A stretch of 64,000 nucleotides of DNA from Thiogranum longum (GTDB taxonomy: Bacteria; Pseudomonadota; Gammaproteobacteria; DSM-19610), in NCBI RefSeq assembly GCF_004339085.1, contig NZ_SMFX01000001.1, forward strand, positions 2,708,573 through 2,772,572. Reading direction: 5' to 3'. The position numbers were made by a program, and so were the translations under genes. Under the pieces are notes generated by a model. The model did no database searches. It saw only the letters and a program-made list of their open reading frames with translations, and had not been told where the DNA came from. Positions 46,286 to 51,294 of the stretch are shown piece after piece (position 1 is the first letter of the stretch; every line of letters begins with the position of its first letter).

Positions 46286-47404
46286 TCAGCGTCGCTTGCG
46301 AACAGCTTTCTTCTTTGCTGCAGTTTTCTTCTTTGCTGTGGCTTTCTTCTTTACCGCCGTTTTCTTTTTTGCCACAGCTTTCTTTTTTACTGCTGTTTTT
46401 TTCTTGCTGACCAGCTTCTTCGTGACAGTCTTCTTGCTGGCAACTGCTTTCTTCTTCGCTGTGGCTTTCTTTTTTGCAGGCACCTTTCTGGCGACAGCCT
46501 TTTTATTGCCGACCTTCTTTTTCACTAGCGCTTTTTTTGCCACGGCTTTCTTTTTTACCGCTGTTTTTTTCTTGCTCGCCGTCTTCTTCGCAACAGCTTT
46601 CTTGCTGGCGACCGGCTTCTTCTCAGGCGGGGCCTTCTTTGCCCGTGCCTTGCCCTCTTCAAGCACCGGTGCAGCATCACCCTCACGCTGTTCCAGCAGC
46701 TTGCGCGCCACAGCACGACGTATGGCTGCGGAACGGTCACGGCTTGGAAATGTCTTCCTCGCCTCCTCCGCAACTTTCAGCACCGCCTGAAATACATCAT
46801 CCGGCTCACCTGTCCCCTGCACCTGCCGCAGAATTTCCTGTTCACGGTAATACTCCACCACCGGCAGGGTCTGCAGCTCATAGATTCTCAGGCGATTGCC
46901 AATGGTTTCTTCATTGTCATCCGAACGGCGTCGCAAACGGCCGCCGCATTCGTCGCAACGGCCATCCATTTTCGGCGGAGCATAGAAAATGTTGTAACTG
47001 GCGCCGCAGGACACACAGGTACGTCGCCCGAACAGGCGCTGCATGATGGTATCGACATCGACATCGATCAGCAGTGCCAGGTCAATGGGCTGGCTCAGCT
47101 GCCCAAGCAACTCATCCAGCTGCTCGGCCTGCGCCAGATTTCGCGGAAAACCATCCAGAATGAAGCCCTTGCGGGCATCGCTGCGGGAAAGTCGCTCGCG
47201 AATGACGCCCAGCACGATTTCGTCGGAAACCAGCTGACCGGCGTCCATTACGACTTTCGCCGCCTTGCCAAGCGGCGTTCCGGCCGCCACGGCCTCCCTC
47301 AGAAGGTCGCCGGTAGAGATTTCCGGAATCTTGTAATGCTTTGCCAATCGATGTCCCTGCGTGCCCTTTCCGCACCCGGGCGCTCCCAATAGCACAATCC
47401 TCAT
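46286..47404 (-). CDS. adk: Adenylate kinase with a long histone H1-like Lys/Ala-rich C-terminal tail
   Basis: 372 residues, against about 215 for normal adenylate kinase. Residues 1-215 are a complete enzyme: P-loop GAPGCGKGTQG, ISTGDLLREAV, LDGFPRNLAQAEQLD, a zinc LID with Cys130, Cys133, Cys150, Cys153, and ETIGNRLRIYELQTLPVVEYY. It interconverts ATP+AMP and 2 ADP. Residues 216-250 form a helical linker (SAAIRRAVARKLLEQRE). From 251 on the sequence is KKxVAKK-type repeats: 52 Lys in the last 122 residues. Such tails resemble AlgP-like or histone-H1-like proteins and could bind DNA, RNA or polyphosphate. No stop or frameshift separates the two parts. A GAGG site precedes the ATG. Confidence 0.93.
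   Translation of the reverse strand: MRIVLLGAPGCGKGTQGHRLAKHYKIPEISTGDLLREAVAAGTPLGKAAKVVMDAGQLVSDEIVLGVIRERLSRSDARKGFILDGFPRNLAQAEQLDELLGQLSQPIDLALLIDVDVDTIMQRLFGRRTCVSCGASYNIFYAPPKMDGRCDECGGRLRRRSDDNEETIGNRLRIYELQTLPVVEYYREQEILRQVQGTGEPDDVFQAVLKVAEEARKTFPSRDRSAAIRRAVARKLLEQREGDAAPVLEEGKARAKKAPPEKKPVASKKAVAKKTASKKKTAVKKKAVAKKALVKKKVGNKKAVARKVPAKKKATAKKKAVASKKTVTKKLVSKKKTAVKKKAVAKKKTAVKKKATAKKKTAAKKKAVRKRR
46290..46650. repeat. Internal low-complexity repeats encoding the adk tail
   Basis: Degenerate tandem units built on alternating CTTTCTTCTTT and GCTGTTTTTTTC-type tracts on the plus strand, encoding KKK-[TA]-[AV] blocks on the minus strand. The region is prone to length change by slippage or recombination, so tail length may differ between strains. 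It also risks assembly error. Confidence 0.8.
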
Positions 47405-47653
47405 AGTCCTCTCACACTCGCTGTGTCATTGATTTTTATTGCATTTATCAGCCAACCCATGGTTTTCGGGAAGCGCTGGCAAATAAAAGTTTTTTCATAG
47501 GGACATACAATAGTTTTCTTAGCTGAAACACCGTCCAGTGATTAAGCTACCGCCCCTACAAGCCCCAAGTCAAACAAAGCACCTGAATTTCATTGCTTTT
47601 TGCTCTATGATTGGGCGCCTTTTCGAAGCTCGCAGGGATTAAACAGCACCAGA

Positions 47654-47833
47654 ATGAACCGGGTTCCCGACTTCACAGACAATGAATTGTGGATTATCAG
47701 GTCCACCTTACAGGAGCGTTATGGCGGAACGCCAGAGCTCCGGCCGGCCGAAACCGAACGGCATCCTGGCCGCTCCCGTACCGGGCTGACAGCCTCACAG
47801 CCGAATTTTACAAAACTGCTTCAGGAGTATTGA
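47654..47833 (+). CDS. Small protein of unknown function upstream of pfp
   Basis: 59 residues starting MNRVPDFTDNELWIIRSTLQ with ERYGG following, then a basic, Pro/Arg-rich part ending FTKLLQEY. Its stop lies 3 bases before the pfp ATG, and the pfp ribosome site GGAG is within its last codons, suggesting coupling. No ribosome site of its own is obvious. The N-terminal half looks like a folded helix, so I consider it a probable small gene rather than noise. An upstream in-frame start at 47600 is less likely. Confidence 0.5.
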   Translation: MNRVPDFTDNELWIIRSTLQERYGGTPELRPAETERHPGRSRTGLTASQPNFTKLLQEY

Positions 47834-47836
47834 TAC

Positions 47837-49114
47837 ATGGCACGATCCACAGAAAAGAAAAACGCATTTTATGCGCAGTCAGGCGGCGTAACCGCTGTCA
47901 TCAACGCCAGTGCCTGCGGCGTGATCGAAACCGCACGCAAACACAAGGACAAGATCGGCAAAGTGTATGCCGGACGTAACGGCATCATCGGCGCGCTGAC
48001 CGAAGACCTCATCGACACCAGCAAGGAATCCGCACGCGCTATTGCCGCGCTGCGTCACACACCTTCCGGTGCCTTCGGTTCCTGCCGCTACAAGATGAAG
48101 AGCCTTGAAGCCAACAAGCGCGAATACGATCGGCTGATCGAGGTCTTCGCTGCACACAACATCGGTTACTTTTTCTATAACGGTGGCGGTGACTCCGCTG
48201 ACACTTGCCTGAAAGTCTCGCAGCTGTCCAAGGCAACCGGTTATCCCATCCAGGCGATACACGTACCCAAGACCGTCGACAACGATCTGCCGATCACCGA
48301 TAACTGCCCCGGCTTCGGCTCTGTCGCCAAGTACATTGCCGTATCCACTCGCGAAGCCAGTTTTGACGTTGCATCCATGTGCGCAACGTCAACCAAGATC
48401 TTCGTGCTGGAAGTCATGGGGCGCCACGCCGGCTGGATCGCTGCCGCCGGCGGTATGGCCGCCACCGAGAACGTCGACCTGCCTATCGTCATCCTGTTCC
48501 CGGAAGTAAAATTCAGCCAGGGCAAATTCCTGAAACTGGTAAAAGAAAAGGTCAAGCAGTACGGCTACTGCTCGATTGTCGTATCCGAAGGCGTACAGGA
48601 CCGTTCCGGCAACTTCCTTGCCGACCAGGGCCTCAAGGATGCCTTTGGTCATGCACAGCTGGGTGGTGTGGCACCGGTTATCGCTGGTCTGATCCGCGAC
48701 AAGCTTGGCTACAAATATCACTGGGCGGTTGCGGATTACCTGCAACGCTCCGCACGCCACATTGCCTCGAAGTCCGACGTGGAGCAGGCCTACGCCATGG
48801 GCAAGGCGGCCGTGGAGATGGCACTGCAGGGCAAGAACTCGGTGATGCCGACTATCAAACGCACATCCAGCAAGCCCTACCGCTGGAAGATCGGCGAGGC
48901 CAAGCTGTCGCGTGTCGCCAACGTCGAGAAGATGATGCCCAAGGGCTTTATCAGCAGGGACGGCTTCGGCATTACCAAAAAGTGTCGCGAGTACCTGGAA
49001 CCGTTGATTGCGGGTGAAGACTACCCGCCTTATGGCAAGGACGGCATGCCGAAATACGTTCAACTCAAGAACGCGCCGGCAAGAAAAAAACTTGCCGACT
49101 TCAAGGTCAAGTAA
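47837..49114 (+). CDS. pfp: Pyrophosphate-dependent 6-phosphofructokinase
   Basis: 425 residues. It phosphorylates fructose 6-phosphate reversibly, using PPi. PPi use is indicated by GGGDSADT (Asp where ATP enzymes have Gly of GGDGS) and by the Lys in PKTVDNDL (Gly in ATP enzymes). Other motifs: FYAQSGGVTAVINAS, YAGRNGIIGAL, VLEVMGRHAGWIAAAGG, VVSEGVQD and YLQRSARHIASKSD. The downstream neighbour is hppA, so the PPi pool links glycolytic flux and proton pumping. GGAG lies 9 bases before the ATG; a terminator follows. Confidence 0.94.
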   Translation: MARSTEKKNAFYAQSGGVTAVINASACGVIETARKHKDKIGKVYAGRNGIIGALTEDLIDTSKESARAIAALRHTPSGAFGSCRYKMKSLEANKREYDRLIEVFAAHNIGYFFYNGGGDSADTCLKVSQLSKATGYPIQAIHVPKTVDNDLPITDNCPGFGSVAKYIAVSTREASFDVASMCATSTKIFVLEVMGRHAGWIAAAGGMAATENVDLPIVILFPEVKFSQGKFLKLVKEKVKQYGYCSIVVSEGVQDRSGNFLADQGLKDAFGHAQLGGVAPVIAGLIRDKLGYKYHWAVADYLQRSARHIASKSDVEQAYAMGKAAVEMALQGKNSVMPTIKRTSSKPYRWKIGEAKLSRVANVEKMMPKGFISRDGFGITKKCREYLEPLIAGEDYPPYGKDGMPKYVQLKNAPARKKLADFKVK

Positions 49115-49260: not shown

Positions 49261-51294
49261 ATGTCCGCTGAACTGATTTTTGTACTGGCCTGTGCGGCCG
49301 CTGCCATCCTGTATGGCATTGTGTCTACACAATGGATACTGGCCAAGCCGGCCGGTAATGAACGCATGCAGGAAATTGCCGCAGCCATTCAGGCAGGCGC
49401 AAAGGCCTACCTGAACCGGCAATACACCACCATCGGTATGGCGGGTGTCGCGCTGCTGGTGCTGATCGGCATTTTTATTGACTGGATAACCGCAGGCGGT
49501 TTCGCCATTGGCGCCATCTTCTCCGGACTGACAGGCTACATCGGCATGAACGTGTCGGTCCGTGCCAATGTGCGTACCGCCGAAGCCGCCAACGACGGTC
49601 TCAACGCTGCCATGCAGATTGCCTTCCGCGGTGGCGCCATTACCGGCATGCTGGTGGTTGGGCTCGGGCTGCTGGGTGTTGCCGGATTTTATACAGCACT
49701 ACTGGTCAGCGGCGTTGAAGACCCCATCCACCCACTGATCGGGCTGGCCTTCGGTGGTTCGCTGATTTCCATTTTCGCCCGTCTTGGTGGCGGTATCTTC
49801 ACCAAGGGCGCGGATGTCGGCGCGGATATCGTCGGCAAGGTGGAAGCCGGTATCCCCGAAGATGACCCGCGCAACCCGGCGGTCATTGCCGACAACGTCG
49901 GTGACAATGTCGGTGACTGTGCCGGCATGGCAGCCGACCTGTTCGAAACCTACGCAGTAACCGTAGTGGCTACCATGCTGCTGGGCGGCCTGTTATTGAA
50001 GGACATGGGTTCGGCTGCAGCAACCTATCCACTGGTGCTCGGTGGTGTGTCGATTATTGCTTCTATTATCGGCACCTTCTTCGTCAAGGCACGCGACGGT
50101 GGCAAGATCATGAATGCCCTGTATCGGGGCCTGATCGTGGCCGGTGTGCTGGCGGCAGGCGCCTTCTACTTCGTCACTCAGCAGGTTATGGGTGACTCGG
50201 TCATGCTGGATGGTGTCAGTGTCGATAGTATGAACCTGTTCTATTGCGGACTGATCGGACTGGCGCTGACGGCCGCCATGGTGGTAATCACCGAGTACTA
50301 CACGGCCACGGAATTCTCCCCGGTTCGCCACATCGCCGAAGCCTCCACCACTGGCGACGGCACCAACGTGATTGCCGGCCTGGGCGTTTCCATGAAATCC
50401 ACCGCTGCCCCGGTTCTCGCCGTTTGCGCGTCTATCTGGGGTGCTTACGAACTGGCCGGCCTGTACGGGATTGCCATTGCTGCAACCTCCATGCTGTCCA
50501 TGACCGGCATCATTGTGGCGCTGGACGCCTATGGTCCTATCACTGACAACGCTGGCGGTATTGCCGAGATGGCCGAACTGGATGAGAAAATCCGCAACAT
50601 TACCGACCCGCTGGATGCTGTCGGTAATACCACCAAGGCCGTAACCAAGGGCTACGCCATCGGTTCCGCAGGTCTTGCAGCCCTGGTGTTGTTTGCCGAT
50701 TACACCCACGCGCTGGCGGGACAGGGTAACGGCGAAGCACTGAACTTCTCGCTGGACAACCACATGGTCATCATCGGCCTGTTCATTGGCGGCCTGGTAC
50801 CCTACCTGTTCGGCGCTATGGCAATGGAAGCCGTGGGCCGTGCTGCCGGTGGCATCGTCAACGAAGTACGTCGCCAGTTCCGCGAAATGCCGGGCATCAT
50901 GGACTACACCCAGAAGCCGGATTACTCCAGGGCAGTGGACATGCTCACCAAGTCGGCCATCAAGGAAATGGTGATTCCGTCACTATTGCCTGTACTGGTA
51001 CCGGTAGTGGTTGGCCTGACACTGGGCAAGGAAGCGCTGGGCGGCCTGTTAATCGGCACCATCGTCACCGGTCTGTTTGTGGCGATTTCCATGACCACCG
51101 GTGGTGGCGCCTGGGACAATGCCAAAAAGTATATCGAGGACGGCAACTTCGGCGGCAAGGGCTCCGATGCTCATAAAGCTGCGGTAACCGGTGATACGGT
51201 GGGTGACCCGTACAAGGACACGGCGGGACCTGCGATCAATCCGTTGATCAAGATCATCAATATTGTTGCATTGATGATTGTGCCGCTGCTGTAG
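49261..51294 (+). CDS. hppA: K+-independent proton-translocating pyrophosphatase
   Basis: 677 residues with about 16 membrane helices. It hydrolyses PPi to pump protons across the inner membrane, or runs in reverse. Catalytic motifs are intact: [20 protein letters not shown] and [19 protein letters not shown], plus the C-terminal [20 protein letters not shown]. In [18 protein letters not shown] the Lys after GNTT marks the K+-independent subclass (K+-dependent enzymes have Ala). A strong GGAGG site precedes the ATG and a terminator follows. Confidence 0.96.

Follow-up and report, generated by a model that had tools for sequence, protein, structure and literature searches.

A single open reading frame of Thiogranum longum encodes a complete zinc-LID adenylate kinase (Adk) followed by a long histone H1-like tail. 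Such tails are carried by orthologues in many gammaproteobacteria, their lysines are under purifying selection, and we see about an even chance that they tether the kinase to nucleic acids. The gene lies on the minus strand at positions 46286-47404 of the window, that is, of the whole analyzed stretch of 64,000 nucleotides. It starts with ATG, ends with a stop codon at 46286..46288, and encodes 372 amino acids. The kinase domain (residues 1-216, 46757..47404, minus strand) was delimited with NF001380, PF00406, and PF05191, the structures 5g3y and 1zin, and an AF2 model. In profile searches, residues 1-213 scored 286.9 bits against NF001380 (cut-off 251), the protein scored 180 bits against PF00406 (cut-off 26.8), and the ADK_lid family PF05191 was matched as well. 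The P-loop is present, as are the catalytic residues K13, R36, R88, R123, R127, R160, and R171, and the LID carries four cysteines in a CxxC...CxxC arrangement. The catalytic domain is intact. The nearest solved structures, of the 5g3y and 1zin family, share with the window protein the kinase domain, the four-Cys LID, and the catalytic residues; however, the solved chains stop at about residue 217-226 and lack the lysine tail.

The AF2 model gave a pLDDT of mostly 86-95 for the kinase domain and placed an additional helix at residues 224-243 (pLDDT about 60-75). This linker (46676..46756, minus strand) was delimited by the model together with conservation in the family, and it contains the R(D)RSAAIRRAVARK motif. 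In the form R(D/N)RSAAIRRAVARK, the motif is kept in 13 members of the genus and family and is predicted to be helical, with the tail beyond it drifting in sequence. Residues 244-372 (46289..46675, minus strand) were modeled without secondary structure (pLDDT 43-51) and are thus predicted to be disordered. This segment was recognized as a tail by its composition, by the model, and by the similar tails found in 110 orthologues. Its 129 residues are 40% Lys and 22.5% Ala, with a net charge of +54. An earlier note, made from the letters alone, had described a complete zinc-LID Adk with an in-frame linker and a lysine-rich tail, and this description was borne out down to the count of 52 Lys in 121 residues (252-372). 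Long, disordered, K/A-rich, repeat-like, and C-terminal, the tail fits the H1-like or lysine-repeat type known from AlgP, HupS, and the C-terminal domain of TopA.

The fusion does not result from faulty assembly. The window belongs to a genome assembled as one 2.9 Mb contig, and more than 100 independently assembled orthologues have similar in-frame tails. The orthologues of relatives likewise carry the tail in frame, which rules out that it is a separate gene. The earlier note had named both possibilities as ways in which its reading could fail. Furthermore, only 45 of 118 tails have a methionine among their first 60 residues; thus, an internal ATG that might start a free tail protein is no conserved feature.

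The earlier note had also proposed a comparison of adk C termini across related genomes, which we made in a family sample of 20 genomes, including the window's own, and in 370 genomes sampled across the class. In the family, an orthologue was found in 17 of 20 genomes (16 of 19 relatives and the window's own), and all 17 have a K/A-rich tail, three of which reach a contig end; the remaining genomes (G001, G009, and G013) have short Adks only. Class-wide, 130 orthologues were read; 88 of them, spread over 40 family codes, are tailed, and 42 are tailless. Composition was similar across 110 distinct tails (K 34%, A 24%, V 8%, T 7%, and P 6%). The median length, among tails with a stop codon, was 190 aa (range 88-440), and the median net charge was +62. 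The four-Cys LID was present in 115 of 116 tailed orthologues. In a few orthologues (such as L157, L163, and L167) an arginine-rich tail of 35-46 aa, for example SPRRPGTRGGRSTGSRGSGHSRRR, stands in place of the lysine tail, so that the positive charge is kept.

The tailed gene was the single PF00406 match in 30 of 30 tailed genomes, which had been picked for having shown one Adk match. Their sole-Adk status implies that the orthologues are active adenylate kinases, as far as can be judged from gene content. The window genome differs in having two short Adk paralogues besides the tailed gene, and thus the tailed enzyme need not be essential there.

Next, we compared the evolution of the tail with that of the kinase. 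Within the genus, identity was 53% in the tail versus 81% in the kinase, and a shuffled tail gave 41%, indicating that the order of residues is loosely held. Few gaps were needed to align the tails of the orthologues L071, L072, and L073. Among these, whose three pairs are not mutually independent, 87-90 lysines were shared, with 18-22 synonymous AAA/AAG changes and 0-1 changes from lysine to another residue, while 32-33 non-lysine tail positions had changed. The Lys-codon omega at kappa 4 was 0.00-0.02 for these pairs and 0.14-0.24 for L023/L007, L009/L011, L002/L056, and L094/L095, with weaker constraint (0.41-0.79) in L074/L076, L034/L035, L057/L059, and L029/L031; these values are pairwise counts, and alignments of repeats can over-match lysines. 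The tail lysines are under purifying selection, and the tail is selected for lysine and charge, not for sequence. Both the sequence and the length of the tail undergo rapid turnover.

This turnover within the genus would also be seen if the tail were a near-neutral product of slippage, in which lysine and alanine codon repeats at the 3' end of the gene expanded and were tolerated since the protein is soluble and abundant. The imperfect 18/36-bp repeats in the tail DNA and the large length shifts among close relatives (311 versus 440 aa in L009/L011) agree with such an origin. However, the strong purifying selection on the lysine codons, the persistence of the tail in 40 family codes, and the fact that the tail state changed only 12 times across the 170 rows of the tree speak against it. 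The tail is therefore unlikely to be neutral junk.

A comparable fusion exists in alphaproteobacteria. In the family code f196, members of NF010381/PRK13808 resemble the window protein in that a K/A-rich tail, 92-110 aa long, comes after the Adk (8 of 8 genomes over the cut-off). In contrast to the four-Cys window enzyme, the two PRK13808 kinases that were inspected have a short LID without the four cysteines. The PRK13808 kinase is about 40% identical to that of the window and sits on a separate long branch of the tree, far from the gammaproteobacterial clade. The window protein is not a member of this model, against which it scored 185 bits in two partial stretches (cut-off 426). Judging from the separate branch, the tail arose at least twice, and that of PRK13808 was gained independently, by convergence. 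PRK13808 is an NCBIfam equivalog named only "adenylate kinase". The earlier note did not know the fusion as a described family. This holds insofar as no paper on an Adk with a lysine-rich tail was found in a search confined to open-access papers, but it has to be qualified by the convergent lysine-tailed Adk already modeled as PRK13808. Thus, the parts are known singly and one lysine-tailed Adk model has been named, while the gammaproteobacterial zinc-LID fusion is without a description that we could find.

Lysine-repeat tails are known to bind DNA or to keep enzymes on it, as reported for AlgP (PMC9239181), HupS/HupB (PMC11229371), and TopA (PMC7398561). AlgP of Pseudomonas aeruginosa has an H1-like, K/A-rich, disordered, DNA-binding C-terminal domain of about 154 aa (PMC9239181). 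It differs from the window protein in having a helical, non-enzyme N-terminal part and KPAA units that act at polyphosphate (polyP) granules, whereas the window tail has KKKxVA units and is attached to an enzyme. In actinobacterial TopA and HupB/HupS, C-terminal lysine repeats on a conserved protein stabilize the contact with DNA (PMC7398561, PMC11229371). There the repeats are joined to proteins that act on DNA or bind it, while here the partner is a soluble enzyme of nucleotide metabolism. According to PMC11229371, lysine-repeat domains have been identified in DNA-binding proteins only.

A second lysine-rich extension was noted outside the window, on a DksA/TraR zinc-finger protein of 275 aa (L082:1414-2241; G000:C1, about 1852222-1853049) whose gene adjoins a gluQ-RS-like gene. 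DksA is an RNA-polymerase-binding factor. The protein has a K/A-rich N-terminal extension with 53 Lys in 156 aa, and a K-rich N-terminal extension of about 90-156 aa was present in 19 of 19 family members read.

Because the tails of AlgP, HupS/HupB, and TopA behave in this way, and DNA and RNA are universal in tailed genomes, we propose, at roughly even confidence, that the polycationic tail tethers a housekeeping-type zinc-LID Adk to nucleic acids (nucleoid DNA and/or RNA and ribosomes) by charge. In favor of this proposal we count the intact active site, the conserved disordered tail, the selection on lysines, the sole-Adk genomes, the DksA extension, and the arginine-rich replacement tails. 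As regards the putative ligand, the composition of the tail does not discriminate between DNA and RNA, ribosomes, or further polyanions.

The H1-like composition, together with a length similar to that of the AlgP and HupS tails, could also suit a moonlighting nucleoid-associated or condensate-forming protein, whose abundant tails would compact DNA or phase-separate with catalysis being incidental. Lysine-rich disordered domains of snoRNPs both target and compact (PMC11528048). We consider this reading improbable, since the catalytic domain shows strict conservation and provides the sole Adk in 30 genomes, and catalysis is thus not incidental. Versions with two roles, combining catalysis with a nucleoid or condensate function, may apply.

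Among the ligands suggested by the earlier note was polyP. Lysine repeats have affinity for polyP (PMC12345225 and references therein), the KPAA tail of AlgP works at polyP granules (PMC9239181), and the window genome has one PPK2, so that the tail might anchor Adk to polyP or its granules and aid polyP-driven AMP/ADP recycling. However, PPK1 was not found in the closed genome of the window. It was also not enriched with the tail, being present in 57 of 88 tailed versus 32 of 42 tailless genomes (p=0.23). PPK1 was missing from 31 tailed genomes, and 23 of these, including the single-contig genomes G133 and G089, lacked PPK2 as well. The capacity to make polyP, as judged by PPK1 and PPK2, is therefore not common to all tailed genomes, as a polyP-binding tail would call for, and these 23 genomes weaken the idea of polyP as a shared ligand. 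PolyP can be a ligand where it is present but could hardly serve as the shared ligand without another route of synthesis. As a general ligand it is disfavored, and an anchoring role like that of AlgP seems to us quite unlikely; of the ligands that the note had listed, DNA or RNA remains the best supported.

The note had further placed the gene beside genes handling pyrophosphate (PPi), and the profile scores agree. The divergent neighbor on the plus strand (47837..49114) encodes a PPi-dependent phosphofructokinase (PPi-PFK) of the PRK14072 family (651 bits, cut-off 273). It is followed on the same strand (49261..51294) by HppA, a membrane H+/Na+-pumping pyrophosphatase (NF001951, 1169 bits, cut-off 859). 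In the adk-pfp intergenic region (47405..47836) and near the gene, scans detected neither Rfam families nor sigma70-consensus promoters. A divergent PPi-PFK adjoined adk in 63 of 85 tailed versus 8 of 42 tailless class genomes (Fisher p=4e-9), and once further rows, short paralogues among them, were added, in 83 of 107 tailed versus 8 of 59 (p=7e-16). On the tree, adjacency changed 12 times over 170 rows, with a single well-supported independent pair of tail and PFK changes. We therefore do not claim independent coevolution of the two; tail and adk-pfp arrangement are mostly one inherited ancestral arrangement. Four genomes without a tailed orthologue (G001, G009, G013, and G154) also had no PPi-PFK (PRK14072) match, a joint absence that physical linkage and gaps in metagenome-assembled genomes can explain.

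This conserved neighborhood could be taken to mean that the tail regulates or stabilizes Adk without binding nucleic acids, be it as a lysine acetylation sensor, by electrostatic attraction of nucleotides, or by docking to PPi-PFK or HppA. Such a role would be in line with the conserved RSAAIRRAVARK helix that separates the kinase from the tail, and with the finding that acetylation weakens DNA binding by the lysine tail of HupS (PMC11229371). Yet PPi-PFK was not adjacent in 22 of the 85 tailed genomes, and the tailed f20 genomes G038, G169, G263, and G337 were absent from the list of PPi-PFK matches, which indicates that the tail does not depend on PPi-PFK. We consider this explanation quite unlikely.

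Charging of tRNA and similar steps yield AMP and PPi. If the tail holds Adk on DNA or RNA through charge, the reaction AMP + ATP -> 2 ADP would be placed where AMP and PPi are released, namely, at tRNA charging, ligation, and nucleic-acid synthesis, and the PPi would be consumed by the divergently encoded PPi-PFK and the HppA pyrophosphatase. This idea follows from the reactions themselves, as Adk removes AMP while PPi-PFK and HppA remove PPi. The tie to sites of AMP and PPi production is less certain than the tether. Only tentatively do we suggest that in many gammaproteobacteria Adk is bound to nucleic acids, that adk-pfp-hppA may form an AMP-plus-PPi disposal module, and that the tail might put AMP recycling at tRNA charging, transcription, or replication.

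Adk is usually regarded as an equilibrium enzyme that diffuses freely. The sole Adk of many bacterial genomes bears a selected H1-like polycation, and such a protein should not stay free amid DNA and RNA. If the tail is a tether, the whole-cell Adk would be spatially organized, the AMP/ADP/ATP balance near nucleic acids would become a testable local property in bacteria, and lysine-repeat domains would no longer be confined to DNA-binding proteins.

Last, some orthologues (L005, L139, L141, and L170) have, beyond the lysine tail, an additional C-terminal segment that is coiled-coil-like and less rich in lysine.
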